A stretch of 56,466 nt of DNA from Clostridia bacterium (GTDB lineage: Bacteria; Bacillota; Clostridia; Christensenellales; CAG-1252), in NCBI GenBank assembly GCA_017961365.1, contig JAGCXI010000035.1, positions 1 through 56,466 of the forward strand. Direction: 5' to 3'. Below the pieces are notes generated by a model. That model ran no database searches, was not told the origin of the DNA, and saw only the letters and a program-made list of their open reading frames with translations. Positions 11,966 through 56,466 of this stretch are shown here, piece after piece. How positions within the stretch are numbered: position 1 is the first letter of the stretch; every line of letters begins with the position of its first letter. A program made the translations under genes and the position numbers.

Positions 11966-11974
11966 TGATATAAT
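11966..11974 (+). promoter_or_regulatory. extended -10 promoter upstream of the IS110 transposase
   Basis: TGATATAAT is a perfect extended -10 element (TATAAT at 11969-11974). No -35 box is visible at 16-18 bases upstream. Transcription would start near 11981, at the foot of a 10-bp stem. Confidence 0.6.
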
Positions 11975-11980
11975 AAAGGT

Positions 11981-12081
11981 GCGCTCCCGCGATCCGGTTT
12001 TTTTCAATACCTAACGCTTGTCGTTTTTACAGGAGGATACGGCGCGGGAGCGTATGCGGCGGAGATTTTCGCCGCATTTTT
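11981..12081 (+). ncRNA. candidate IS110 bridge RNA or structured leader
   Basis: A unit of about 100 bases lies between an extended -10 promoter and an intrinsic terminator, directly upstream of an IS110 transposase. CGCTCCCGCG (11982-11991) pairs perfectly with CGCGGGAGCG (12043-12052), closing a 51-base internal region with smaller pairings such as AACG/CGTT. IS110-group elements are known to encode a bridge RNA in the non-coding end upstream of the transposase, with loops that choose donor and target. This unit has the right place and a defined end, but is shorter than the roughly 180-base bridge RNA of IS621. It may instead be an attenuating leader. Function is inferred. Confidence 0.5.
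12054..12081 (+). terminator. intrinsic terminator upstream of the IS110 transposase
   Basis: ATGCGGCG (12054-12061) pairs perfectly with CGCCGCAT (12070-12077) around an 8-base loop and is followed by TTTTT. It lies 30 bases before the transposase start, so it would separate the short upstream RNA from the transposase message and keep transposase expression low. Confidence 0.82.
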
Positions 12082-12110
12082 ATCAAAAAAAAACAAAGGA
12101 GGAAAAGAAA

Positions 12111-13313
12111 ATGATATACGTGGGAATAGACGTAGCGAAGGACAAACACGACTGCCACATCGTGCGGGAGGACGGCGAGATCCTTTTGGATAATTACACC
12201 TTTCAAAACGACTCGGAGGGATTTTCGGCGTTTCGGGAGACGGTGAAGCGCCTGCGCAAACGAAAGGAAGAAGTCAAGATCGGCTTGGAGCATACGGGGC
12301 ATTATTCGCAAAATCTCCTCTCCTTCCTAAAGGAAGAGGGCTATACCGTCATCGCCTTAAATCCTTTGACGGTGAATATGTACCGCAAGAGCAAGTCCCT
12401 TCGCAATACGAAGACGGACAAAAGCGACGCGCGCTACATCGCCGAAGTGACGGCGGAGACCGTCGTAGAAAAGAGGCGGCACGTTCTCGCCGACATCTAT
12501 ACACTGAAATCCCTGACGCGATACCGTTACCGCGTCTTAAAGACCCTCCAGACGATGAAGAACCGTTACCGCCGCGTCTTGCAGATCGTCTTTCCGGAAT
12601 TCGAGACCGTCTTCAACGTGAATTATAAGACCACCATCGACCTTCTCGTGAAATATCCTTCGCCGAAGGATATCCTGAAGACGGATAAAGAGGCGCTCGC
12701 AAAGAGTCTCGACAAGCTTTCGCACGGACATTACGGGAAGAAGACGGAGGCGCTCATCGACGCCGCCGCACACACCATCGGCGCGGCGAACGCGGGCGAC
12801 GCTTTCGAACTGAAACACCTCGCGAAACAGATCTCTTTCCTGCAAGAAGAAGTGGACGTCCTCGAGGAACGGCTGGAAACGATCCTTCGCCGCCTGCATA
12901 CGCCCATCCTCTCCATCCCCGGCATCGGGATCAGCACCGGCGCCGCCATCCTCGCCGAGATCGGAAATATCAAGAACTTCGAGACTCCTTCCAAGCTCCT
13001 TGCTTACGTCGGGAGCGAGCCCACGATCTATCAATCGGGCAAATACCTCCTCACCCGCACGCCGATGGTGAAGAAAGGCTCGAAATACCTCAGAAACGCC
13101 ATCTTCCAAGCCACCAAAGCCGCCTACATCACAGACCCCGTCATGCGCGCTTACATCGACAAAAAGCGTGACGAGGGGAAACATTTCTTCGTCGCCCTCT
13201 CGCACGGAATGAAGAAAATGACCCGCATCATCTTCGCCGTGCTGAAAAGCGGAAAAGACTACCAAGCGCCGAAAGGGACGGCGATAAACGCCGAATGCGA
13301 AACGGAAGATTAA
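12111..13313 (+). CDS. IS110-family transposase
   Basis: The 400-residue protein has both IS110 domains. The RuvC-like DEDD domain shows D7 (VGIDVAKD), E60 (GLEHTG), D103 and D106 (KTDKSDARY). The C-terminal Transposase_20 domain begins near residue 265 with SIPGIGISTGAAILAEIG and includes the conserved QSG serine (S309, likely nucleophile) and KKGSKYLRNA. A coiled-coil stretch joins them. The gene looks intact. AAAGGAGG sits before the ATG at 12111; the frame is open further left but crosses the terminator. These enzymes are guided by an RNA encoded in the element and leave no inverted terminal repeats. The element lies between convergent or non-overlapping host genes and breaks none that I can see. 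Confidence 0.93.
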   Translation: MIYVGIDVAKDKHDCHIVREDGEILLDNYTFQNDSEGFSAFRETVKRLRKRKEEVKIGLEHTGHYSQNLLSFLKEEGYTVIALNPLTVNMYRKSKSLRNTKTDKSDARYIAEVTAETVVEKRRHVLADIYTLKSLTRYRYRVLKTLQTMKNRYRRVLQIVFPEFETVFNVNYKTTIDLLVKYPSPKDILKTDKEALAKSLDKLSHGHYGKKTEALIDAAAHTIGAANAGDAFELKHLAKQISFLQEEVDVLEERLETILRRLHTPILSIPGIGISTGAAILAEIGNIKNFETPSKLLAYVGSEPTIYQSGKYLLTRTPMVKKGSKYLRNAIFQATKAAYITDPVMRAYIDKKRDEGKHFFVALSHGMKKMTRIIFAVLKSGKDYQAPKGTAINAECETED

Positions 13314-13315
13314 AA

Positions 13316-13342
13316 AACGCTACGATACACGCAGCGCTTTTT
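13316..13342 (+). terminator. probable terminator after the transposase gene
   Basis: AACGCT (13316-13321) can pair with AGCGCTT (from 13333, one bulged base), followed by TTTTT. It lies a few bases past the transposase stop codon and just before the convergent flavodoxin-like gene. Confidence 0.5.
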
Positions 13343-13358
13343 ATTTCTTCAAGGAAAA

Positions 13359-41636: not shown

Positions 41637-44600
41637 TCAATTATAGTAATAATTTGAATAATTGGAATAACGATCATAGTTCGTTAAGTCCCTATTATCC
41701 TCCAGATTGGAATAAGAATTCGCCATAACGCTATAATACGTGCTGACGAAAGCCATGCTCTTTCTGATCTCATTCCACGCCTCATGCGTGCCGCCGTAAT
41801 AGATCTGCATATCCGTGCGATACGAGCAGTCATAGAAAGCGAAGGTCCCGAGCTTTTTCACGGAAGACGGGAGCGCGATGGCGCTCAAACTGTCACAATT
41901 ACGGAACGCCGAGCTTTCGATGGTCTCAAGCCCTTGATTAAAGATCACGCAATTCAGATTCAAGCAATACGCAAACGCCTTACGATAAATGACTTTCACA
42001 TTGCTTCCGAAAGTCACGCGGAGGAGCCCGCTGCATTCATAGAACGCCCTCTCCCCTATCTTTTCAACGGAATTCGGAATGGCGACCGCAGTCAGAGAAT
42101 AACACCCCGAGAAGGCGGAACGAGAGATCGAGCGGAGGGAATTCGAGAAAGTGACCATACGAAGATTTCCGCACTGATAGAAAGCGCAGGTGCCGATGCT
42201 CGACGCATTCGAGAGATCGAAGGTCGTCAAAGAATCACAGGCACGGAAAGCATTGCTCGGGACTTTCTCCACGGGTTGCAGATATTTGACAGTCAGAAGG
42301 TTGCGCGCCTTGCGATAAGCCGATTCGGCGATGGAGGACTGATTCGTGACCGTCACCGACTGGATCCAAGACACGCCCTTCGTGCCGAGGAGATAAGAAA
42401 GCGGCTTGGGCGATTTTTCCTTGCCGATACGGTTCACGACCAAGCTGACAAGATCCGGACAATTCGCAAAAGCGTATTCCTTGATTTTCGTGTCCGATCC
42501 GTCGATCGTGACCGACAAAAGACGGCTCTTCTCGAATGCGCTTTTCCCGATGACCTTTAAAGCTTCCGTCCCCGTGAAATAATCAATCGAAGTGTCATAG
42601 AAGGCATAGTTCCCGATCTCCGTAAGCTCTCCGCATTCGAAATCGGAGAAATACGTACAATCGCGGAAGGCATCCTTCTTAACGACCGTCACGTTCCTGC
42701 CCACGACGGAGCAAAGGGAGGTACAGCCGGAGAAAGCCTTCGCGGGGATGGTCGTCTGCTCATCCGAGAGCGTCATGGAGACAAGGCTCGAACAGCCGGA
42801 GAAACAGCCTGCTTTCTTGATGGGACGAATGATCTCCAAGCGTCCGATATAGCGCCTGCTCTCCCCGAACACTTTTTTCATCGTGCGATCCAATTCGTAA
42901 ATGCTGACGTCATAGAGGTTGTCGCACTCGGCGAAAGCCTTCTTCCCGATCGAAAGATCGGTGGCGGCGGTAAGATCGACGGAAAGGAGATCCTCCGCGT
43001 CGCGGAAGGCATTCTTCCCGATGTCGTGAAGATCCGCACTCGCTTTATAAGAAAGAATGCCGGACTCACGGAAAGCATCCGCCTTGATCAAGGTGACCAT
43101 CGCTTCGCAAGGGACTTTATCCAAACTATAACAGCGGAAGAAAGCTTTCTTGCCGATGCTTGTCACGCCGTTCAAGGTCAAACGCGAGAGGAAGAAACAC
43201 TCGCCGAACGCTTCATCCGGAATGGTCTCGACGGGCGACTCCAGAACAAGATCCGTCAAATAATAACATCCGTTGAAAGCCCCTTTCGCAAGCTCTGTCT
43301 GCGAGAAGATCGAGATGGAAAGGACATTCGCGCGGCTTTCGCCGAAAACCGTCTCCATCGTAGAAGGCTTTCCTTTGGTGTAAAGGCGGCTGAGCGACAC
43401 GGAAGTGAGATCATCACACCGGTCGAAAGCGCCCTCCCCGCAAGAGAGTTCTTCATGCGTGAGAGATACGCTCGTCAATTCGGAATTTGCAAAGGCGCCC
43501 TCGCCGATATAAGCCAAAGAAGGCAGATCCGACAAACGACGAATGGCGGTGTCCCGATACGCATTTTTCTCGATGCGCTCCACCGCGTCAAACGAGACAG
43601 AAGAGAGCCATTCGCAGCCGCGGAAAGCCTCCTCTTTCACGACAGTGACGGCGGGCGCTTCCACGGAGGTAAGCGCAGTGCAGCCCTTAAAGGCGCGCGC
43701 GGGAATGACCGTCTGATCTTCCGCAAGATAGACGGAACATAAGCTTTCGCACCCCTCGAAGCACCCTTCTTTCTCGCATTTTCCGCTGAGACCGACGGCG
43801 GTGATGATATCCTTCGTCGAGCCGAAGATATCCTCCATCGTGGCATGGGATTTTTGCGAGCCCAAATACGCCAAAGAAACGGAGGACAGCTGCTTACAAT
43901 CGGTGAAAGCTTTCCTGCCGAGCTTGGCGTCAAAGGACTCGGAAGTATCAAGCGTCGAGAGGTCGGATGCGGCGAAAGCCCTGTCCCCCACCTTCTCCAA
44001 CGCCGCGGTGCCGATAAAGGCGGTGACGCCCGTATACGAGAACGCCTCCGCGCCCACTTCGACCAAAGTGTCCATGCTCGGCACGCTTCTCAGGTTCTCA
44101 CAGCCATAGAAAGCGCCCGTGCCGATGCGGAGCAGATTCACGGCGTCCACGATCGCAAGCGCGGCGCAGTCCTTGAAGCAATACTTGGGGATCTCTTCGA
44201 TCCTCTCTCCGAGCACCACTTTATACAAAGAGCCGCATCCTTCGAACGCCGACGTCGCCAAAGACGCCTGATCCGTCACGTAGACCGTCTCCACCGACGA
44301 AACGGAAGAGCCCAATACGGACTTCAACGTGCGCGGAGACTTGTCCGAACCGATCGCGGCGCAACGGAAGGAAGCAAGCATCGGGCAGTCTGCGAAGACT
44401 TGCTTGCCGAGCGTCAGGCTCGGATCCATAATGCTCGCCGATTTCAGATATTGACAGCCCGCGAAAGCCTTGTCTCCGATCTCGGTGACGACCGAGCCCG
44501 AAGCATAAGACTCAAGCGCGGTATTCGCAAACGCCTCTTTCCCGATGGTGGTGATCCCCGCGAAGGAGATATCGCGGAAATTGGAACAATTCTTAAAGCC

Positions 44601-47237
44601 CGCCTCTTCCACCTTCGTGATGGTATTACAAGAGAGAGAGACCAAGGACTCGCAGTCTTTAAATCCGTCCTTGACGACCACCATTTCCGCAGAGTCGAGG
44701 ATCGTGATCTTGCGGAGGGTCTTCTTGCCTTCCGCAGAGATGAAATATCCCATATCCTTGAAAGCGCCGATCTCATCCCCGATGAAAGGAAGAGTGATGG
44801 CGTCGAGCGCGCCGCATCCGTAAAGGATCCCTTTCTCGATGCGGGTCACCGTGCCGCGAAGCTTCATGTCGGAAAGACTTTCGCAATTCTCGAAAAGCTT
44901 CTTGGGGAGCGTCGAATCGGAAAAGACGAGATCCACCCTTTCCAAGCTCTCGCAGGAGGAGAAAGCTCCCTTCCCGATCTCGAGCGAAGGCGCGAGCGAA
45001 GCGCAGCGCAACTCACGAATAAAAGCGCAATTCGCAAAAGCATAATCGCCGATCGAGACATAACGATCGAGATACGCCTTGGAAGACGCCGTGCCGTAAA
45101 AGGCTTTATCTCCCACCTCACGCGCGAAAGAGACCTTCTGCGCGGCATCCAAACAGGCACAATCTTTAAAGGCGCCGTCTCCGACGATCGAGACATTCTT
45201 TCCGCCCGTCAGCTCCTCGAGAACAAGGCATCCCTTAAAGCAATACGCGGGGATCTCCGTCGTAGCGGAATGCAGCTTCACGGTGGTCAAAGCGTCGCAA
45301 TTTTCAAAAGCATGCGCGCCGAGCGTAACTTCCGAGGAAGAAAGATCCACAGTCTCCAACGCATCGCAATTTCGGAAGGCATTCGCGCCGACCGTCTTGC
45401 AATTCGCCCCTCCGAAAAAGCGCTGAATTTGATTCGGCAAGAGGAAGGAATTCGCCGCGACGCCGATGATCTCATAATCCTCATAGGTCTTGGGGAGCGA
45501 GACCTCCGTCAGACTCCTATCGAAGAGACCCGCGACGACCATCGTATGATCCGCGCGACGATTATAATAATAAGACTCGTCATAAGCGTCATAACGCCCC
45601 ATGAAATAACAGCCCGTGACCAAAAGCAGGAAGGTGATGATCCCGAGGGAGCACGCCCATCTGCGGCCTTTGCCGCATTTTTTCCCATAATCGCTCTTCT
45701 TGTCGCGCTTCTTTCCGTAGGGGCGGTCATACGCCTTATTTCGACTGACGACGCCGCATATCGTGATATACGTCACGACGAGCAAGGTCACGAGCGCCGT
45801 CAAAGCAAGCTGACCGATGAGCTGATCGATCAAGGTGTAACGATAGATCCCATATACGGCGAGAAGCCCCGCAAAGAAGAAGAAGGAGAAAGTGACGGGC
45901 GCTTTGCGAAGCGCGCTTTCTTTCTTATTCAACTTCGCGATCTCCTCTTCCGCCAAGGTGTCCAAAAGAAGCCCGAGGAGGACTCGGCTCATATCGAAAA
46001 GAAGTGCTTCGTCGGGCATCTCCTCGATGCAGCTCGCGTTGTCGGCAAAATCCTGCAAAAGACCGCTGAGCTTCGGATCTTTCCTATAATCCTTGCCGAG
46101 ATCCGCGGCGTCGAGATTATAAAGATCCCACGCCGTCTTCACCTCCTTCCCCTCGGACAAAGAAGAGGCATTCTTCTGTATATAACGCACGTACTCGCAG
46201 AAGAATCTCAACGCCTGCTTCGCGCCGACGCTGCGTCCCACGTCCGCAAAACCTGTCTTCTCGGACTTATTCGAAACGTCGAAATGACCCGTCTTGAGAT
46301 CAAAATTACATTTTGCTTTTCCCGCGGACTTAAAAAGGAACTTGGGGAGGGTATAATTCGGATAAACGAGACGATCGCCTTCGAGATCTACGCGGAAAGA
46401 CGCGTACTTCTTCAAAGCGGTGTAATCTCCGAGAGAGATATACGAAGAAAAGATCTTCTCATAATCCACGTTCTTTTTCCCGATCGCGCTCTCGATGACG
46501 GCGACGCGCGAAAGGATCTTGTCCCATTTGATGGGGCGGAACCAAGATTTATCCGTGCCCGGATATTTGACATTCTTGCTGACGATATATTTATCGTAGA
46601 AAGCTTCTTTCTTCTTTTTCCAAAACTCTGCGAAAAGTTCTTTTCTCCGCGCCGCGCGCTCCTGCGCCGCTTCGATCTCGCTGACCAGCTTACGAACGAA
46701 GAGGAGGACGTCCACCTTCTCTTCCCTGTCATCGCCTTTGAGACCGAATTCGTCCGCGATGCCGTCGCTATAGAAATTCGTCGCCGCGATCTTCTCTTTT
46801 ACCTTATTACAAGCGGTTTTGAGAACCTTTTCGCAACTATAATCCTTCGCGTCGTCCAGATCATGCAAAAAAGCGAAAAGAAGCATCTTGGCGTCATAGC
46901 CGATCTTGTCATGCTCTGCGGCTTTGGGCAAAGTGTCTCCGTACTTCGCGGAAACGCAATAATCCGTCGGCTTCCTCAGGATCTTCGCCTTATACGCCAG
47001 ATAGTCAAGAGCGGAAGTGTCCAACGCTGCGATGCCGACGGAAGGATCCCACGTCCCGCCTATCTTCTCTTCGACGGCGGCGCAATACGCCTCAAAGCTG
47101 TCATACAGCGGGCGAAACATCGTCTCGCCCTTATCCGTAAGAACGATCTTGGAGTCATAGAGCCAATGATCCGGCCTTCCGAGAGAATGCCAGACGGCTC
47201 TTTCCGACCATTTTATTTCTGTATCACCTATTCCCAT
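41637..47237 (-). CDS. membrane-anchored LRR_5 (BspA-like) surface protein
   Basis: The 1,866-residue protein has a cytoplasmic, charged helical region (residues 1 to about 445), three membrane helices (about 448-466, 474-496, 527-546) and then an extracellular stretch of some 1,300 residues. This is built of BspA-type leucine-rich repeats with the recurring IG-x-x-AF-x-x-C-x-x-L. A variant linker with L/F-G (for example METVFGESRANVLSISIF, MEDIFGSTKDIITAVGL) recurs five times at roughly 170-190 residue intervals, so the array is organised in super-repeats. Such proteins bind host or bacterial surfaces. No LPxTG is present; anchoring is by the helices. GGAG lies ahead of the ATG, 22 bases after the giant gene. 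Confidence 0.88.
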   Translation of the reverse strand: MGIGDTEIKWSERAVWHSLGRPDHWLYDSKIVLTDKGETMFRPLYDSFEAYCAAVEEKIGGTWDPSVGIAALDTSALDYLAYKAKILRKPTDYCVSAKYGDTLPKAAEHDKIGYDAKMLLFAFLHDLDDAKDYSCEKVLKTACNKVKEKIAATNFYSDGIADEFGLKGDDREEKVDVLLFVRKLVSEIEAAQERAARRKELFAEFWKKKKEAFYDKYIVSKNVKYPGTDKSWFRPIKWDKILSRVAVIESAIGKKNVDYEKIFSSYISLGDYTALKKYASFRVDLEGDRLVYPNYTLPKFLFKSAGKAKCNFDLKTGHFDVSNKSEKTGFADVGRSVGAKQALRFFCEYVRYIQKNASSLSEGKEVKTAWDLYNLDAADLGKDYRKDPKLSGLLQDFADNASCIEEMPDEALLFDMSRVLLGLLLDTLAEEEIAKLNKKESALRKAPVTFSFFFFAGLLAVYGIYRYTLIDQLIGQLALTALVTLLVVTYITICGVVSRNKAYDRPYGKKRDKKSDYGKKCGKGRRWACSLGIITFLLLVTGCYFMGRYDAYDESYYYNRRADHTMVVAGLFDRSLTEVSLPKTYEDYEIIGVAANSFLLPNQIQRFFGGANCKTVGANAFRNCDALETVDLSSSEVTLGAHAFENCDALTTVKLHSATTEIPAYCFKGCLVLEELTGGKNVSIVGDGAFKDCACLDAAQKVSFAREVGDKAFYGTASSKAYLDRYVSIGDYAFANCAFIRELRCASLAPSLEIGKGAFSSCESLERVDLVFSDSTLPKKLFENCESLSDMKLRGTVTRIEKGILYGCGALDAITLPFIGDEIGAFKDMGYFISAEGKKTLRKITILDSAEMVVVKDGFKDCESLVSLSCNTITKVEEAGFKNCSNFRDISFAGITTIGKEAFANTALESYASGSVVTEIGDKAFAGCQYLKSASIMDPSLTLGKQVFADCPMLASFRCAAIGSDKSPRTLKSVLGSSVSSVETVYVTDQASLATSAFEGCGSLYKVVLGERIEEIPKYCFKDCAALAIVDAVNLLRIGTGAFYGCENLRSVPSMDTLVEVGAEAFSYTGVTAFIGTAALEKVGDRAFAASDLSTLDTSESFDAKLGRKAFTDCKQLSSVSLAYLGSQKSHATMEDIFGSTKDIITAVGLSGKCEKEGCFEGCESLCSVYLAEDQTVIPARAFKGCTALTSVEAPAVTVVKEEAFRGCEWLSSVSFDAVERIEKNAYRDTAIRRLSDLPSLAYIGEGAFANSELTSVSLTHEELSCGEGAFDRCDDLTSVSLSRLYTKGKPSTMETVFGESRANVLSISIFSQTELAKGAFNGCYYLTDLVLESPVETIPDEAFGECFFLSRLTLNGVTSIGKKAFFRCYSLDKVPCEAMVTLIKADAFRESGILSYKASADLHDIGKNAFRDAEDLLSVDLTAATDLSIGKKAFAECDNLYDVSIYELDRTMKKVFGESRRYIGRLEIIRPIKKAGCFSGCSSLVSMTLSDEQTTIPAKAFSGCTSLCSVVGRNVTVVKKDAFRDCTYFSDFECGELTEIGNYAFYDTSIDYFTGTEALKVIGKSAFEKSRLLSVTIDGSDTKIKEYAFANCPDLVSLVVNRIGKEKSPKPLSYLLGTKGVSWIQSVTVTNQSSIAESAYRKARNLLTVKYLQPVEKVPSNAFRACDSLTTFDLSNASSIGTCAFYQCGNLRMVTFSNSLRSISRSAFSGCYSLTAVAIPNSVEKIGERAFYECSGLLRVTFGSNVKVIYRKAFAYCLNLNCVIFNQGLETIESSAFRNCDSLSAIALPSSVKKLGTFAFYDCSYRTDMQIYYGGTHEAWNEIRKSMAFVSTYYSVMANSYSNLEDNRDLTNYDRYSNYSNYYYN

Positions 47238-47259: not shown

Positions 47260-50200
47260 TTATTGCGGCACGACGAAGCTTGTCGCGGGATTCGTAATCG
47301 AGATGTTTTGAGTGCCTTTCGTCGAGACGCGAACATACCAAGTACCGGGGTTTTGGAAGACATAACTCTCCGGCTGTGTCGTAGACTGCCAATTCACCGG
47401 ATCCGAATAATAAACGAAATTCAAGAGCGCGATAATATTCGGATCGGAAGAGACGGCGGCTTTGAGATCATCCTCCGTAGCGTAAGACCGATTCTCTCCG
47501 ACGTAATGCGAATTCGGGATGTCCAAAGTCAATTGCTTCATCGTAACGAAACACGAACCGTTACCTTCGTAATTTCCGGAGGTATTACTGCAACGCCAAT
47601 CGAATGCCTTCTGTCCCCCGATTTTAAAGGTCACTTCGGGATATTCCGCGTCTCCGTTATAGAGAATGACGTCGGAAAGAGCCTCACCGTCCACAAGCAA
47701 GCGGAACTTATAACTTGTGCTGCCCGCGAAGACGATGCCCGTCGTCTCTTCATAGTCTTGCCAACCGGACACCTCATCGTCTCCTGCTCTCAAGTACTGC
47801 AAGGTAAGTCCGTCATTCAAGGAGAGCGTTCTCGGATTGATCGTCCATTCGATCTTCGCCGTGCGCTTGTAATTCGTCAAGGCATTGATCTTATTGTCCC
47901 CCGCTTCGAAGAAATAATTCTCTGTCGTCAATTTGACATAACCGTCATATTGACCTGCGTCTTGCTTCGTCAGATCGACCGTATCGATATAATTCGCAGC
48001 GTCCGCAACGTCGATGGTATATCCGATGGTTCGATTCGTTCCGTTATAGGTGCATTCTATGGTTCGATTCGTTTCATTATAGGTGAATCCTGTGATCGTC
48101 ACGCTGAGGGTGACTGCCTTCGGATCGATATACCAATACACTGTCGCCGCATGCGCGTCGTCCTTCAAATCATCCACGCCCGTGCCTTTCACGAAGCAAT
48201 AATCCGACGAAGTCAAAGTCACGGTCGCAGTATAGGGCGAGGAAGAAGCATTCACTTCCGCAAGACCTTCTTCCGTGATGTAATTCTTCGCATCCTCAAC
48301 GTCCAAATCATACGTGATCTCCCTTTGCGCATTCTTCGCGTACTCAAATCTCTTTGCGGAGGTCACGGCAATCGTGACGGGTTTCGGATCGATGGACCAA
48401 GAATAGGTCGTCTGCGTGCTAATGGTGTAATACGCGGCTTGATCGGGCTTTAAAGTGACCTGCACTTGATAATTGCCGGCATGCGTCGCCGCATCGCCCG
48501 ATATCGTACAAACGCCTTTCTTATCGGCATTCGACGAATTCGTTACGGACACGCCGATGGTCTGCTCCGTTCCGGAATACAAATCGTTCGCACGAGCATC
48601 ATTGAAGACGACAGTCAGTTTCGCCTTTTCGATCGACCAACTGAATTCTTTTTCGTCTCCGCCCCCAATGAAGCGATAATTGCTCGTCAGCGTGAAGGTC
48701 GCCGTATACTCACCGATATCCTTCTCCTGGATCGCGCTTGTGCTCTCGAAAGTCGCCGTGGAGGGCGAGAGCGTATACTCCAAAGTGATATATGCGCCCG
48801 TGTACTCATACTTAAACTTCGTCACATCCAAGGAGACTTCACACTTCGCGATCGTCCAAGCGAAGCTCTTCTGATAGATCGGCTCGCCTTGCGCCGTCCA
48901 ACCGAAGCAATAATTATTCTGATTCACAGCCTTAATGGTCGCATATGCCGTATAGCTGCCTGCGTCGGTCGCTTGATTCCCCGATACGTCGAAAAGGTCG
49001 GACGCTTCGAAAGCATAGGTCTTCAATTCATTGCTATAGGTCAGATTTTGTCCCGCTTTCGGCGTGGCAGTGATCTCCGCTTTCTTGATCGTCCAAGGCG
49101 CAGAGGCTTTATCTCCGCTCTTGCTCCAGCCCGAAGGATAGCTCGCGATCGTATAATTCGCGCTCGCCGGCGACACTTCCGCCGTATAGGAATTTGCCAC
49201 CGTACCCGTATTTGCGCTGACATTGATGGAGCTTGCGCCCGCATTGGAAACCACGGTGAAAGTCTTCTGGGATCCGTTATAGGTAAATTCGGAGCCGGAA
49301 GGACCGACGCTGAGGGTGATGCCCCAAGGCGCAATGGACCAGCCGAGGCTTACGCTCGTCATGCTTCCCGCGAAGGTATAGTTCGTCTGATATGCGCTCT
49401 TGATCTCCACGGTCGCCATATACTCGGTGCTTGCATTCGTGCCGGTATTCCCCGTGACGGAGGTCACTTTCCCGCTGTCCGCGGCTCTCTCGCCCGTCAC
49501 GTTGATCTCTTTCGTCTGCGAACTGCCGTTATAGGTCAGCGAAGAAGATCCGAGCGCTGCCGTAAGCGTCCTCTTGGCGATATTCACGGTATGAATCGCC
49601 GAGCTCTCGAGCACGTAATTCGCCCAACTGCCGGCATCCGCATCCACCGTGATGACATATCCGCCTTCCTTATGATCCACCGCGCTGAAATCGATCTGCA
49701 CCTGCGAACCGGAATAATTCTTCACGCCCGCATCCGCCGTGACCGAAACGCGACCCTGCAAGGACGCGGCGCTATGCGCGCATATATTCTGCACGGAGAT
49801 CGTCAGCTGATTCGTATTTCCGTAAGTGCAATTCGTATGATCACTCGTCGTCCCGAAAGAAATGGTGACGGGGCGTTTCGTGATCTCCCAGGTCAAGTCT
49901 GTCTCGCCTCCGTAAGCGTAATTCGCGGCATTGCTGAGCCCCGAGACTACGATATGATAAACGCCGACATTCGTCTCGCTCTGCGTCGTATTCGCCCCGA
50001 AGGTGATCTCATTACGATCGAGCGCCACCCCGTCAAAGAGGATGGTCGGCGTATGCGCAACGCCGTCATAGACAATGCTGTCGTCGCCCGTCTTCAACGT
50101 GACGGAGGAGACATTCTTCTTATTCACCGTAAAGACGGCTTTACTTCCCGTCACCACCGCATAGTTCGCGCAGAGCTCGGAGATCCCGACGGTGTACGTG

Positions 50201-53200
50201 GCGGCATTCGTCGCCCTGAACTGCACGGTCAGTCTCGACTCTCCCGCGTCATAACCGATGGAGCCCAAGGTCACGCCCGAAGGCAAGGAGAACTTGCTCG
50301 CCGCGCCCGTTTGAATGGCGGAGAGGTCTCCCTCCGAAACGCCCTCGATGGCAAGCGTAAACGTGAGCAAACTATTCGCATAGGTCTGCGCCTCCAAGGT
50401 CTGATCCACGGAGATGGTCTTCGCCTTGATCTCATAAGCATAGGAAGCGCCCGAGGTGATCTCGTAATTCCCATTGGAGAAGGAAATGCTCGCCGTATAA
50501 GAGCCTGCATTCGTCTTTTTGTCATTCGTGACGGTCGCGCCGACGTTATCCGCGCCGTAGACGCCGAACAAACCGGGCGTCGCGACGTATTGTCCGCCGT
50601 TATAGATCACGGTGGGCTTCCCATCTTCGATCGCCACCGCGCCGGAGAGGGTCCATTCGATCGTGACCTGCGCAGGCGAAATGCTCCAAGACCAGCGGCT
50701 CGACGTCTCGTCCAATACATAGTTCTTATTCACGTCCGCAGAGGTCAAGGCGGCAACCGCTTGATAGCCCTCCGCGCGTACGTTCATTTTGGAATAATCA
50801 TTCGAAGCGGAAAGCTCGGGCGTCTCGCCGTTCTGCGCGCCCAAAGCGACGACAGGGGTCAAGGTGACGGTCGTCCCGTCATAGACGTAAGAAGCGGCAG
50901 CCGCAGCCTCGTTCTTTTTCCAAGCGACGGTCAGCGTCCTCTTCGAGATCGTCCAAGTCCAAATCTTCGTCGCCGCGTCAAGGTCGTAATTCTTATTCAC
51001 GTCCGCGGAAGTGAACGCCGCGACCGCTTCATAGCTCGTCGTCCTCGCGTCCTTCGCGGCGAATTCATTCGTAGCGGCAAGCACGGGTGTCTCGCCGTTC
51101 TGCGCGCCCGAAGCGACGACGGGGGTCAAGGTGACGGTCGTCCCGTCATAGACATAAGAAGCGGAAGCCGCAGCGTCGCTCTTTTTCCAAGCGACGGTCA
51201 GCGTCCTCGTGGCGATGCGCCATTCGCAAGTGGGCGCAGAGGTCGGAAGCTTGTAATTATTTTGCGCCGCGCCCGAGATCCCCGTGACAGTCGCCGTGTA
51301 CGAGGTGCTCGCGTCGGTCTTATTCGCATTGTCATAGAGGAAAGTCACCGTATCATTCCCCACCACGTTCAAAGCGACGGCGGAGACGGAACGCTCCGTC
51401 CCGTTATAGACGTAATCTCCGGTTTGATAAAGATCGCCGCTGTCATTCTTCCAAACGAAGCCTTCCAACGTGCGTTTCGCGATCGTCCAATTCTTTAAAA
51501 GCGTCGCGGAAGCGATCCCCTCAATCGTATAATTCGGATTCGAGAGAGCGACAAGCGTCGTCGTATAATCGCCCGCGTTTCTGCAAGCGCCGCTATACGA
51601 ATAAACGCAGCCGACGTCGTCCGTCCCCGCATTCGTCGGGCGAGCGATATAAGCATTTTGATGTGCGCTCCCGTCATAGATCCGATCATAGGAAGTGTCG
51701 GAGAGCACCCATTCGAAGGCGAGTTTCTTCGGCGCGATGCTGAACGTATCCCCCCAAGAATACTTGCCGCCATTCTCCGTATCCTCATAATGGGCGGACT
51801 GCACCGCATAATTCGGATCGAGGCATTCCACGGCGATCGAGAAAGACACGACCGTCCGATACGAGAAGGTGAAGATCTCTTTATTCTCGGCAATGATCGC
51901 CTCGAAAGAGCGCTCTAAGGGCGTATCGAGCGTGCGATCCGCCTCCACCGTTACTTTGATATTCCCTGTCTTCCATTCGGAATTGCAATCCTTATTCTGC
52001 ACGCCCGTGAGGGTCAAAGTGGCGCTGATCATGTCGCCCGTATAAGTATTCGCGAGATTATTCCAAGCATAGGTGATGGTCGCAGGGATGATATGCCATT
52101 CTCTCGTGGCGTCCGCATCCCCCGCCAAAACGTAGTTCGCGTCCGTGAAGCTCGCCACCGTCGTCTCGTAGTCTCCTACATTCGTCCTGCGGTTGCCCTT
52201 CCCTGTGACATAACGCACTTCGGGGGCGTCCGCCGCCGCGGCAAGCACCCAATCTCCCGTCTCGGGATCAGAAACGTATTTCACCGTGGCGGCGCTCACG
52301 CTTGCCGTCACGTTCTGTTCCGCGCCCGTATAAGACGGAGAGTATCCGTTCGTCTGCGTCCAGACCAATGTCTTCACTTGGATGGGCGAGATCTCCAAAG
52401 AGGTCATCGTCTCCGAAATGATGTAATTATTCATCAGAGCGGAATCACCGAATCCGCTGACGACGAGCTCATACACCTCGGCGTCCACAGCCTGCACCGT
52501 AAGCAGATACTCGCTCGCGGCGCCCGCGGCGGCGAGGAGCTTATGCGTTTTGCCGTTCTCCGTAATATTCCAAGCGAAACAGTCTTGATCGACCTGCGCT
52601 TCTTCTCCGTGCTCGAAGCCGGAGATCCTAAGCGTCGCCGCCTGCACGGAGCCATCATAGGTGGCGGAGAGATCATTCGGCGTGACCGTCAAGGCTTTCT
52701 TCGCGATGCGCCAAGACAAAGTCACCGTCTCCTGCGACGCGACGTAATCATGGCTTTCCACATTGCCGACCACATTCGTGACGGCGTCGATCGCCGCCGT
52801 ATAGACGTCGGCGTTGAGCTTCTTCACATCGCGCAAAGTGAGCGCCAAAGCGTCTTTCTCGCCCGTCGCGGCATTCATGCAAAGATCCGCCGCATCCGCG
52901 CTCGGATAGACCTCTTTATTCGTGCCGTTATACGTGAAAGCCGCATCGTAATAAGGCGTGAGATGCGCATTATCGACATACCAGCCGAAGGTCAGCGTCT
53001 TGGGGGTGATCGTATAAGTCCTCACCTCGTCCGCCGCCGCAAGCTCGTAATTATCGAGGCTCATCGTGAGATCCAAAGCATACGTCGCCGCGCGGATGAT
53101 CTTGATGTCGAGGCGATATACGGAAAGATTTCCCGGCGTGAAGCTGCCCGCGCAAGCGAAGTCCACGGCGTTCGCCGCAACGTGACGGAAAAGATCCGCC

Positions 53201-56200
53201 GTGATATTCTCCACGTCATTCCCCTTGAAACCTTCCACAGAGAGGATAAACGTGCGATAACTTCCGTCATAGACGGAAGAGTCTGCGTCCACATAGTCGA
53301 TCCAGCTCTTCGTGAGCCTTTGCTTGTCGATCGTCCAATTGCAGTTCACTTTATTATCGGGGAGAGAATCTATCGTATAGTTATTCGCCGCCGAACCCGT
53401 GATGCCCGTGATCGTGATGCGATACTCGCCCGCATTCGTGAAGTCCACTTTATCTCCCGCCACGCCCGTACGCGTGCCGCCTTGATAAAGGAAGCTGATC
53501 TGATCTCCTTCTTCGACCTCCGCCACCGCTCTTATGGTCTGCGGCGCGGCGCTGTAAGTCGTATGAAGGACGCCGCCGCTGAAGGCATAATCGCCCGTCG
53601 ACTCCCAATTCACCGTGACCGCTTTCTTCGCGATGGTCCATTCCGTAGAAAGGTTATTTCCACCCGTCAAGGTGTAATTATCATTTCCGAGAGAGATGGC
53701 TTGGGCGGTATACGTGCCGGCGTTGATGGCGGAAGCGGCGTCATTGCAACTCACTTCGCAGACATCCCGCACGCCGTTTCTGCTGCAGATATTCTTGACC
53801 GCGACGCTGACATATTTCCAAGTCTTATCATAAGTGGTCTGCGTATTCGTCCAGACCAGCTCGACGGGGCGCTTCGTGATCGTCCAAGAGCAAGTCTCCT
53901 TGCCCTCTTCCGTGAAGACATATTCATAATACTCCGCGAGCGCATCGGGAAGCGCTTGGATCTTCGCCACGTACGTGCCTTGATCCGTCCCCGAGACCTG
54001 TCCTTCGAGGGCGATGGTATTCGCCTTGATATCCGCGGGTACGCCGTCGCCGTATTCCGCCACCATCCTATGCTCCGCGCCGTTATAGACCGTGGTGAAA
54101 TTTCCGTAATCGCCCGTGCCGTCCAGTCTCCAACGAATGGTGACGGGGCATTTCACGATGGTGTATTTCGAGCTGATCGCTCTCTTTTGATAGTTCGGAT
54201 CGACGGCGCCGTTCTTCAGGATGGAAAGATAAGTGGAGACGGAATAGCCCTGCTTATTGACGGCGCGCTGACCGTTTCCGCTATACGCGGGCGCATCCGC
54301 CGTGAGTCCGCTCACAGCCAAAGGCGCGCCCGGCGTCCAAGTGACTTCTACGCTCTTGGGAAGACCGTCATAGACGTACTCCATCTCAAGGAACCGAATA
54401 TTGTATTTATTCTTGAGTCTCTCGAAATACTCGACGTCTTTCTCGAGATCTTTCTGCATCACGGAGATCGTGACGCTCGCGGCGCCCGCGGAAGTCTGCT
54501 CCGTGAGCTCGTCATTCCCGGAGGTGGCGAGGACAGAGAAGGCGTATACGCCCGATTTCACGACATCCTTCGTGAGAAGCGTGAAGGTGACGAGCCCCGT
54601 ATCTTCGGCATAGCCACAGGTGAAAACGGCGAAATCGGGATTCGTGACATTCTCCATCGCACAGCTGCCCGCGAGGTTCGGATCGTATTTCAGCTCGAAA
54701 GAACCCGTCGTCTCCTCGGCGCCGAAAGACGTCGCAAGCTCATTGGGCGTAAAGGACCATCTGACCTGATAACGATTGGTCTTATTCAGAGCGTGATCCA
54801 AGCTATACGAGGCATAAAGCGTATTATTATCGTCATACTCGAAGGACTTAAAGGTGGAATTCAATGCCTCCTCTTCCCCATTTGTTTCGAGCTTGAGCTG
54901 CGTCCTTACGCCGAGGAAATCCAGCTCCCAAACCGGCGTAAGCGTGACGGAATCACGGAAAGAAAGCGTCTTGAGATAATTCGTGTCAAGGCTGTAATGC
55001 TCGCTGTCCGCGCTGTCATAACAATACCACTTGAGATCTTGATATCCCTCTCGCTCATACCCTTCATAGGTGGGCAGGTCGAAATTATTTACGTCCTCAC
55101 CCACGATGAAGTCGGTCTTCAGCCCGGGCGTCTCAATGGGCACGTAATAAGAGCCCCATTGATAGGTGACGCTGCAGACTTTCGCCCAGCGGGCGTAAAG
55201 CGTGGTGTCCTTCGGGAAGACGGCGCTGTAGGTCTCGGCGGCAAACTGCACGAGAGAGCCGCTCTCGGTCTCCCAACCGCGGAAAATATAACGCTCGCCC
55301 GAAGCGGGGTCCGTGAAGACCATCTCGGAATTATAGAAAGTCTTATCCGTGATGAAAGCATTCGTGGAAGGCATCAGATCCGCCAACATAAAGGTGCGGA
55401 GCTCCGCCACGCCGCTGACGAGATCGAGGATCTTGCTCGGGACGAAGAGCCCGTCCATTCTCGACTCGAAATTCACAAGCACTTTCTTGTCAAGATTATC
55501 CACCGTGAGATTTTCACGGATCTCGGGATAGGTCTGACGGATATAATTGTATTTTTCCTGCATCTTGTCCGTATCGCGCGGATCTTCGTTATCATTGATG
55601 ATGGTGATCTCGAGATCGTCCTTCTTGAAAGCATCCTCAAAGACGATGACGGCGTCCGACTCCGAAGAAAGGGAAAGCGTACGGAGAGAGGACGTGACGA
55701 TGGACGTGCCGAAATAAATATTGCCGTTTTGGGCAAAAAGCTCCACAGACTCGAGGTTCTCACTGACGATGCCCTCTTTTCCGATGGATTCGACGGACTT
55801 CGGAAGCGCGATGGCGCGAATATTATTCCCGACGATGGCGCGATCTCCGATCTCGCGAATGTTCGACGGCGCGTCCTCCGTGTCCTCGAAGATCACTTCG
55901 TCGATCTCTTTCGCGCTCGTGAAGAGCTTATTGCGCACGGTCTCGGAATCCAAAGCGCCTTCCAAGATCTTCGTGACCTTGAGCCCATTGAATTCGGAAG
56001 GGACGAAGACTTTCTTGCTCTGTCCCCAATAAATGCCTTTGACGTAATACTCCGTGCCGTCCGCGCTCTTTTCATACATAATATTTCTGTATTGGAGGCG
56101 ATCATTGCGATAACGCGTATGCATGACTGCGACGGGGAAAACGACGGAGATGAGCTGAATGACGACCACGATGATAAGGAAAGCGAAATACGTCTTCGTA

Positions 56201-56466
56201 CCCGTCTTGAACTTATCTTCCGAACAATCGTAATTATGTAACGCCACGCGGAACTCGATCTTATCCCACCATTGATAGACCAAAAGAATGGTCAAAAGCT
56301 GACAGACCCACACCGCCGCAAGATCGATCCTGAGATACGCGCCGATGGAGGCGAAAACGAAATTCGCCGCGGTGAGCGCGATCCAGAGCAGATTCAACAC
56401 AAGCAACATCGCGCGGATCCCCGAAGCGGGATTTCCTGCGTTTGCCTTGACGTTATGCGGGAAATA
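47260..56466 (-). CDS. giant membrane-anchored MBG-type repeat protein, 5' end outside the window
   Basis: The frame is open from the stop at 47260 to the right edge (at least 3,068 codons). The first ATG inside (56409) has no ribosome site and falls at the start of a membrane helix, so the true start is beyond the window. Near the N-terminus are two or three membrane helices, then an LRR-like part and two InlB-B-like modules (for example YIFRGWETESGS ... TLYARW). About two dozen domains of 80-100 residues follow, joined by W-T-I-x-K-R-x-L-T-V-x-W linkers, as in MBG/YDG-type adhesin repeats (Y-N-G, Y-D-G starts). There is no C-terminal sorting signal. Probably a long surface adhesin. Confidence 0.88.
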   Translation of the reverse strand, partial: YFPHNVKANAGNPASGIRAMLLVLNLLWIALTAANFVFASIGAYLRIDLAAVWVCQLLTILLVYQWWDKIEFRVALHNYDCSEDKFKTGTKTYFAFLIIVVVIQLISVVFPVAVMHTRYRNDRLQYRNIMYEKSADGTEYYVKGIYWGQSKKVFVPSEFNGLKVTKILEGALDSETVRNKLFTSAKEIDEVIFEDTEDAPSNIREIGDRAIVGNNIRAIALPKSVESIGKEGIVSENLESVELFAQNGNIYFGTSIVTSSLRTLSLSSESDAVIVFEDAFKKDDLEITIINDNEDPRDTDKMQEKYNYIRQTYPEIRENLTVDNLDKKVLVNFESRMDGLFVPSKILDLVSGVAELRTFMLADLMPSTNAFITDKTFYNSEMVFTDPASGERYIFRGWETESGSLVQFAAETYSAVFPKDTTLYARWAKVCSVTYQWGSYYVPIETPGLKTDFIVGEDVNNFDLPTYEGYEREGYQDLKWYCYDSADSEHYSLDTNYLKTLSFRDSVTLTPVWELDFLGVRTQLKLETNGEEEALNSTFKSFEYDDNNTLYASYSLDHALNKTNRYQVRWSFTPNELATSFGAEETTGSFELKYDPNLAGSCAMENVTNPDFAVFTCGYAEDTGLVTFTLLTKDVVKSGVYAFSVLATSGNDELTEQTSAGAASVTISVMQKDLEKDVEYFERLKNKYNIRFLEMEYVYDGLPKSVEVTWTPGAPLAVSGLTADAPAYSGNGQRAVNKQGYSVSTYLSILKNGAVDPNYQKRAISSKYTIVKCPVTIRWRLDGTGDYGNFTTVYNGAEHRMVAEYGDGVPADIKANTIALEGQVSGTDQGTYVAKIQALPDALAEYYEYVFTEEGKETCSWTITKRPVELVWTNTQTTYDKTWKYVSVAVKNICSRNGVRDVCEVSCNDAASAINAGTYTAQAISLGNDNYTLTGGNNLSTEWTIAKKAVTVNWESTGDYAFSGGVLHTTYSAAPQTIRAVAEVEEGDQISFLYQGGTRTGVAGDKVDFTNAGEYRITITGITGSAANNYTIDSLPDNKVNCNWTIDKQRLTKSWIDYVDADSSVYDGSYRTFILSVEGFKGNDVENITADLFRHVAANAVDFACAGSFTPGNLSVYRLDIKIIRAATYALDLTMSLDNYELAAADEVRTYTITPKTLTFGWYVDNAHLTPYYDAAFTYNGTNKEVYPSADAADLCMNAATGEKDALALTLRDVKKLNADVYTAAIDAVTNVVGNVESHDYVASQETVTLSWRIAKKALTVTPNDLSATYDGSVQAATLRISGFEHGEEAQVDQDCFAWNITENGKTHKLLAAAGAASEYLLTVQAVDAEVYELVVSGFGDSALMNNYIISETMTSLEISPIQVKTLVWTQTNGYSPSYTGAEQNVTASVSAATVKYVSDPETGDWVLAAAADAPEVRYVTGKGNRRTNVGDYETTVASFTDANYVLAGDADATREWHIIPATITYAWNNLANTYTGDMISATLTLTGVQNKDCNSEWKTGNIKVTVEADRTLDTPLERSFEAIIAENKEIFTFSYRTVVSFSIAVECLDPNYAVQSAHYEDTENGGKYSWGDTFSIAPKKLAFEWVLSDTSYDRIYDGSAHQNAYIARPTNAGTDDVGCVYSYSGACRNAGDYTTTLVALSNPNYTIEGIASATLLKNWTIAKRTLEGFVWKNDSGDLYQTGDYVYNGTERSVSAVALNVVGNDTVTFLYDNANKTDASTSYTATVTGISGAAQNNYKLPTSAPTCEWRIATRTLTVAWKKSDAAASASYVYDGTTVTLTPVVASGAQNGETPVLAATNEFAAKDARTTSYEAVAAFTSADVNKNYDLDAATKIWTWTISKRTLTVAWKKNEAAAAASYVYDGTTVTLTPVVALGAQNGETPELSASNDYSKMNVRAEGYQAVAALTSADVNKNYVLDETSSRWSWSISPAQVTIEWTLSGAVAIEDGKPTVIYNGGQYVATPGLFGVYGADNVGATVTNDKKTNAGSYTASISFSNGNYEITSGASYAYEIKAKTISVDQTLEAQTYANSLLTFTLAIEGVSEGDLSAIQTGAASKFSLPSGVTLGSIGYDAGESRLTVQFRATNAATYTVGISELCANYAVVTGSKAVFTVNKKNVSSVTLKTGDDSIVYDGVAHTPTILFDGVALDRNEITFGANTTQSETNVGVYHIVVSGLSNAANYAYGGETDLTWEITKRPVTISFGTTSDHTNCTYGNTNQLTISVQNICAHSAASLQGRVSVTADAGVKNYSGSQVQIDFSAVDHKEGGYVITVDADAGSWANYVLESSAIHTVNIAKRTLTAALGSSSLTYNGSSQTKEINVTGERAADSGKVTSVTGNTGTNASTEYMATVEIKSAYQTNYTFAGSMTSVSLGWSIAPWGITLSVGPSGSEFTYNGSQKTFTVVSNAGASSINVSANTGTVANSYTAEVSPASANYTIASYPSGWSKSGDKASAPWTIKKAEITATPKAGQNLTYSNELKTYAFEASDLFDVSGNQATDAGSYTAYATIKAVNQNNYCFGWTAQGEPIYQKSFAWTIAKCEVSLDVTKFKYEYTGAYITLEYTLSPSTATFESTSAIQEKDIGEYTATFTLTSNYRFIGGGDEKEFSWSIEKAKLTVVFNDARANDLYSGTEQTIGVSVTNSSNADKKGVCTISGDAATHAGNYQVQVTLKPDQAAYYTISTQTTYSWSIDPKPVTIAVTSAKRFEYAKNAQREITYDLDVEDAKNYITEEGLAEVNASSSPYTATVTLTSSDYCFVKGTGVDDLKDDAHAATVYWYIDPKAVTLSVTITGFTYNETNRTIECTYNGTNRTIGYTIDVADAANYIDTVDLTKQDAGQYDGYVKLTTENYFFEAGDNKINALTNYKRTAKIEWTINPRTLSLNDGLTLQYLRAGDDEVSGWQDYEETTGIVFAGSTSYKFRLLVDGEALSDVILYNGDAEYPEVTFKIGGQKAFDWRCSNTSGNYEGNGSCFVTMKQLTLDIPNSHYVGENRSYATEDDLKAAVSSDPNIIALLNFVYYSDPVNWQSTTQPESYVFQNPGTWYVRVSTKGTQNISITNPATSFVVPQ
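50660..51211 (-). repeat. tandem near-duplicate 267-base units within the giant gene
   Basis: Two neighbouring modules encode TLTVAWKK...ASYVYDGTTVTLTPVV and TSADVNKNY, with nearly identical DNA at a spacing of exactly 267 bases (CAAGCGACGGTCAGCGTCCT at 50921 and again at 51188), which is 89 residues. The other modules of the protein are far more divergent, so this pair arose by recent duplication or was homogenised. Outer limits are approximate. Confidence 0.8.

Follow-up and report, generated by a model that had tools for sequence, protein, structure and literature searches.

Our analysis of a 56,466-nucleotide stretch of a Clostridia bacterium contig (the window) shows that an IS110-family recombinase with an intact active site and a short RNA encoded just upstream of it make up one chromosomal unit, present in single copy and inherited jointly. 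We are highly confident, independently of any argument about its target, that this is a domesticated bridge-RNA system with one loop, and alignment with mobile relatives shows the predicted RNA to correspond to the target half of a bridge RNA, with a terminator replacing the donor half. We further posit, leaning slightly towards this reading, that the domesticated recombinase and its one-loop RNA may together act as an invertase of surface-gene pairs.

The unit opens with an extended −10 promoter element, TG-A-TATAAT, read from the sequence at 11966–11974 (this and the following features all lie on the plus strand), where 11974 is the last base of TGATATAAT; in all ten RNA-bearing genomes the −10 reads TATAAT, once TATACT, with unchanged spacing. 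The one-loop guide RNA is assigned to 11981–12081, its 5′ end inferred from the position of the −10. Its closing stem, a perfect 10-bp helix evident in sequence and fold, pairs a 5′ arm CGCTCCCGCG (11982–11991) with a 3′ arm CGCGGGAGCG (12043–12052) around an interior of 51 bases (11992–12042). Within this interior we recognize a putative left guide CAATAC with a CT core (12005–12012), aligned with the left guide of the relatives’ target-binding loops, an apical hairpin AACGCTTGTCGTT (12013–12025) predicted by the fold and found also in the relatives’ target and donor loops, and a putative right guide TTTACAGG with the AG core complement (12026–12035), at the position of the relatives’ right guide. 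An intrinsic terminator (12054–12081) follows where the relatives carry their donor-binding loop; its hairpin (12054–12077) has 10 pairs and a 4-base loop, continues into TTTTAT, and the unit ends about 30 bases upstream of the recombinase start codon. The fold of 11978–12085 reaches −47.9 kcal/mol against −31.2 ± 3.6 for shuffled sequences (z −4.6; 0 of 200 as good), and an Rfam search returned no family matching the RNA. The sequence-only reading from which we started had described the extended −10, the 10-bp stem with its 51-base interior and the intrinsic terminator ahead of an IS110-family gene, and its coordinates are correct. It had also noted a repeated AACGCT, as a hint too short to prove donor pairing. 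The string does occur at 12013–12018 and 13316–13321, but both are hairpin arms, the first the 5′ arm of the apical hairpin and the second part of a terminator-like hairpin at the 3′ end of the recombinase gene (13314–13343, read from sequence); with the relatives’ version of the apical hairpin present in target and donor loops alike, donor pairing by this string is ruled out.

The recombinase gene (12111–13313) encodes a 400-residue DEDD/serine recombinase of the IS110 family, assigned by domains, alignment with IS621 and fold matches. Its DEDD_Tnp_IS110 (PF01548, 133 bits) and Transposase_20 (PF02371, 74 bits) domains score above the curated cut-offs, as does NF033542 (211 bits against a cut-off of 140). 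The catalytic residues D7, E60, D103, D106 and S309 correspond to D11, E60, D102, D105 and S241 of IS621, and all five are invariant among 11 aligned proteins. A profile search and Foldseek, the latter queried with a predicted model (mean pLDDT 77, pTM 0.59), agree that the nearest solved structures are IS621 and ISCro4. A longer protein was considered and rejected, the frame being open upstream through the RNA in the window but not in every genome.

Both partners are present once per genome in 10 of the 13 genomes of the genus. A DNA search found the RNA always preceding the same gene, with matching promoter, stem, loop and terminator in nine further genomes; the host names in the records of these loci are uncultured Clostridia or Christensenella, and several are ruminant-derived. 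The covariance analysis proposed as a check in the sequence-only reading bears the structure out: both the closing stem and the hairpin of the terminator vary in sequence among the ten RNAs while their pairing is kept, with paired changes in both stems, counted on each genome’s own predicted fold, a procedure that leans toward structure, between sequences that plainly differ (a MAFFT alignment of the ten RNAs misplaced the stems, and the individual folds were used for the counts). Between these stems the loop, CAATACCTAACGC-NN-GTCGTTTTTAC(G)(A/G)GGAGGATACGG, is near-invariant, while the proteins differ by up to 33%. The window RNA is a real RNA gene.

In nine genomes the unit shares its left neighbours (ybaK, EamA, p438, ADH) and its right neighbours (Fld or ROK, AspK, DUF1015, DisA) as far as the contigs extend; downstream of DUF4364 the genomes vary too widely for an empty-site comparison. 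At one locus (G009, L050:3228–5451) the orientation of both ADH and the recombinase gene is reversed against that of the adjoining genes, beside a foreign flank on a short contig, reflecting either a rearrangement or an assembly error. The three genomes without the recombinase (G001, G002 and G010) have an intact, contiguous locus and fall in two places in a tree of five neighbour proteins (G002; G001 with G010), so that an ancestral gene with at least two losses is the simplest history. The recombinase tree matches this tree in its main groups, and pairwise dN/dS values of 0.045–0.118 establish that the recombinase is under purifying selection. Around the unit we could recognize no LE or RE resembling the relatives’ ends, nor the defined ends and copies at different places that mark an IS110 insertion sequence. 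The earlier label of an IS110 transposase holds for the protein family, by domains and IS621 alignment, but not for an insertion sequence: because the unit is single-copy, syntenic and vertically inherited, element ends and insertion targets are not definable for it, and a mobile element with definable ends is ruled out by the synteny.

The closest mobile relatives lie at loci L051, L072, L073 and L074 (51–53% identity) and L052 (42%), and in each a two-loop bridge RNA precedes the gene (that of L073 was folded). They have a CT core, an LE that starts with CGTATAAT (CGTATTAT in L052) and an RE that ends with TAGTTAG. In the first loop, the 3′ arm carries the right target as its reverse complement, with 7, 8, 7, 7 and 5 contiguous right-guide matches in L051, L072, L073, L074 and L052, always best against the element’s own flank; these runs of 5–8 matches validate the right-guide position. 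Identity between the 5′ arm and the left target is seen in L074 (7) and L052 (8) but not in L051, L072 or L073. The second loop holds the donor guides. Against this anatomy the window’s GGTTTTTTTCAATAC-CT-AACGC..GTCGTTTTTACAGG-AG-GATACGG aligns with GGTTCAGTCATAC-CT-AACGGTATTTCGTTTGATGGG-AG-AGTCC of L074, so that left guide, apical hairpin, right guide and CT/AG core of a target-binding loop all have a counterpart. A donor-binding loop does not, the terminator standing in its place, and searching by similarity to the RNA gives one match per genome. The suggestion that this might be a reduced bridge RNA is borne out by the part-by-part correspondence with the relatives’ target-binding loop and the missing donor loop. 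The one-loop RNA shares with the two-loop elements of Clostridia MAGs (L051, L072, L073, L074) the apical hairpin AACG..CGTT, the target-loop anatomy and a promoter just before the RNA; proper to those elements are the donor loop, LE and RE, varied genomic places and guides that match their own insertion sites.

Applied to the window RNA, the guide rule taken from the relatives predicts a site that reads TTTACAGG-AG-GTATTGAAAA on the gene strand. At full length this site is absent above chance from the genomes searched: the 18-nt pattern with up to three mismatches gave 10 matches in 13 genomes, no more than the control, and a 13-nt degenerate pattern likewise gave no excess. The shorter WCAATRCCTCC matched 29 times against 9 in the control, as expected of a pattern containing the ribosome-binding GGAGG, and these matches had no gene starts in common. 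Among the 13-nt matches, six lie at the starts of orthologues of one gene, which is why we singled out its family of surface-protein genes, a choice made post hoc from lists without overall excess over control. A perfect 13-nt match inside an ABC-transporter gene (G003 C95:6122) was set aside as chance. Counted as outer + core + inner nucleotides, the family’s sites match the guide over 7+2+5 in G006, 4+2+5 (twice) and 3+2+5 in G000, 3+2+5 in the promoter copy and 1+2+5 in the silent copies of G003, and 0+2+5 in G008, where the outer half CGAGA differs from the clade’s guide CGAGG by a single G-to-A (4–5 nt if this is allowed). The contiguous match amounts to 14 nt in G006, a length for which we estimate about 0.009 exact matches per such genome, and to 11 nt at the silent sites of G000. 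CAGG occurs in the RNAs of G000 and G006 and in their non-promoter sites, a suggestive guide–site covariation in too few cases. We infer that the start of this surface-protein gene family, with the core just before the ATG, is the best chromosomal target found, and pairing of the one-loop RNA’s guides with a real target appears partly supported.

The product of the family is a secreted protein that begins MKKRLLITSIVMMLVVAVALSTATYAWFTSN, in our reading a SipW/TasA-like signal; Pfam and NCBIfam searches returned no family for it. On the gene strand the putative site reads CAGG-AG-GTATT, with the AG/CT core just before the ATG; in the C8-type convergent pair of G000 the putative AG core lies in AGGAGGTATT. 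Exact identity among the G000 copies sets in 1–5 nt outside the predicted core and extends inward, with unrelated sequence further out, and in G003 it sets in 1 nt outside the core. Shared sequence starts 17–19 nt before the ATG in G000 and 14 nt before it in G003, and exact identity runs 44–92 nt into the gene, beyond what a crossover at the core alone causes, so that gene conversion would act too. The silent copies of G003 read GTG-AG-GTATT and TAG-AG-GTATT, which places the identity boundary at the core even without a ribosome-binding site, and their flanks are themselves related repeats (about 79%). A silent surface gene of G003 C95 (L179:5900–6846, minus strand) has an in-frame stop after residue 174, which might fit an unexpressed copy. 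At the gene start of G008, a 16-bp perfect palindrome (ACCTTCTCGAGGTGGG...CCCACCTCGAGAAGGT, L180:1483–1540) abuts the predicted core. The window itself holds two repetitive, surface-protein-like minus-strand reading frames of 1866 and 3049 residues (41637–47237 and 47260–56409).

Convergent pairs of these genes occur in the recombinase-positive G000 (C8), G003 (C95) and G008 (C120), and a single gene with a conserved promoter in the recombinase-negative G001, G002 and G010. The G008 pair occupies the position of the single gene that precedes an ABC-transporter operon in G010 and G001, G008 being the only genome in which the right flank, traced via this operon, is informative. In 6 of the 10 recombinase-positive genomes the family is absent or present only at a contig end, and the association of recombinase and pair consequently rests on three genomes against three. 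In G000, G003 and G006, contigs stop 54–72 nt from the shared start, as short-read assemblies do when they break at repeats or mixed orientations. Convergent pairs with shared starts, a layout that may reflect Piv-type inversion, stand in three genomes; all the genomes analysed are draft MAGs, in which assembly errors are possible.

We hypothesize that the recombinase binds the one-loop RNA and that each complex would recognize the starts of genes in the one secreted surface-protein family. Two recombinase dimers, each carrying a one-loop RNA, would engage a pair of gene-start sites lying in opposite orientation, and strand exchange at the AG/CT core would invert the segment between them, either flipping a convergent pair or moving another gene body behind the promoter. 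The outcome would be phase variation as with Moraxella Piv, here with an identifiable guide RNA. With like sites on both partners one loop would suffice; an IS110 that transposes joins a target to a different donor and so requires two. IS621 recombines in trans when its target and donor loops are supplied separately, and donor–donor recombination occurs while target–target recombination does not, because the target hairpin falls short of RuvC (PMC11208158); since the target and donor hairpins are nearly alike in the present subfamily, this obstacle may not hold here. Programmed IS621 can invert DNA (PMC11208160), and Piv is an IS110-type enzyme turned host invertase (PMC11187229). Counting against inversion by the one-loop complex, right-guide pairing is poor at the silent sites of G003, with 1 nt beyond the core, and in G008. 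We regard the full proposal, a host-owned RNA-guided DNA invertase that has one loop as both sites are alike and serves phase variation of secreted surface proteins, as evenly balanced.

The boundaries and pairs on which this proposal leans could in part have other origins. It is possible, though we think it unlikely, that the surface pairs recombine by homologous recombination, gene conversion or another recombinase, and that the one-loop recombinase acts on some other target, chromosomal or, as a defence, on invading DNA. The shared repeats of about 100 nt are long enough for homologous exchange and could mimic part of the pattern, predicted sites show no genome-wide excess, and right guides differ between clades, with poor matches at the G003 and G008 sites; yet in two genomes the 5′ boundary of identity coincides with the predicted core, the single-gene state is found in both lineages that independently lost the recombinase, and no other recombinase gene lies in the surface-gene loci examined. 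Rather less probable is a domesticated RNA-guided DNA-binding regulator whose one-loop complex would occupy gene starts and repress expression with no recombination, comparable in function to TldR. Five catalytic residues invariant under selection, unlike those of the nuclease-dead TldR, speak against it, and it leaves the convergent pairs and the identity boundaries near the core unexplained, although a single loop, a conserved guide and a predicted site over the ribosome-binding region would suit a regulator, and RNA-guided regulators derived from transposon nucleases exist (PMC13418256).

An RNA acting by itself, with the recombinase merely its neighbour, seems improbable. Such an antisense or leader RNA could control translation, CAAUACCU of its left arm being complementary to AGGUAUUG of the mRNA start, or its terminator, 30 nt upstream of the recombinase start codon, could attenuate the recombinase gene; but the right arm, being same-sense with the mRNA, is unable to pair with it and still fits the site (14 contiguous nt in G006), and each segment of the RNA has its counterpart in the target loop of a bridge RNA. 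That the unit is an ordinary or decaying IS110 insertion sequence is hardly tenable: the protein family fits, but a single copy at a constant position across divergent genomes, purifying selection and the missing LE, RE and donor loop do not.

The domesticated one-loop system shares with IS621 and ISCro4 (PMC11208160, PMC11208158) the RuvC DEDD and Tnp serine recombinase, the RNA upstream of the gene and a loop built of left guide, apical hairpin, right guide and CT core; it differs in having one loop rather than two, its own terminator, no LE or RE, immobility and 400 instead of about 326 residues. Piv of Moraxella (PMC11187229 and references there) is likewise an IS110-type DEDD enzyme, with which the host inverts surface-protein genes, the role we propose here. 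It belongs to the short IS492/IS621 branch (315–330 residues), whereas the window recombinase is of the long type (395–455 residues), and its arrangement differs in that our gene pairs lie on other contigs and do not adjoin the recombinase gene; no guide RNA for Piv is described in the literature covered. TIGR-Tas (PMC12045711) likewise uses an RNA guide and has a fold that is distantly related (Foldseek E about 1e-3), but the window protein scores 22 bits against the NCBIfam TIGR_Tas cut-off of 100, and its RNA is a single unit and no tandem guide array. In the literature searched (preprints not covered), we found no domesticated IS110 and no RNA-guided invertase, and bridge recombinases are known there solely from mobile elements whose RNAs have two loops. 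TldR, a regulator domesticated from TnpB, is a working parallel only, as a transposon-derived RNA-guided protein kept by its host. TldR proteins are nuclease-dead and belong to an unrelated nuclease family, whereas the active site of the window recombinase is intact. Gut bacteria of one genus retain an enzyme that no longer jumps together with half of its guide RNA, and the pair may flip surface-protein genes. A one-loop version maintained by vertical descent would mean that the halves of the bridge RNA have already been split in evolution. It would point to a more compact tool for inverting or excising DNA between two like sites, and it opens to testing the old question of whether Piv-type invertases of the IS110 family are RNA-guided.

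Some mobile relatives show variation of their own. The elements at L072, L073 and L074 (RNA upstream of 2102 or 6001) have near-identical donor loops and ends and differing target loops; the right targets of these insertions start with CTCC, the complement of ribosome-binding sites, and among the three the left guide fits its own flank in L074 only. At L079:5600–5930, an IS110 element of 53% identity from a Clostridiales MAG carries about four target-loop-like modules, including a 110-nt duplication (97%), followed by just one donor loop, and its RNA is possibly a bridge RNA with several targets.
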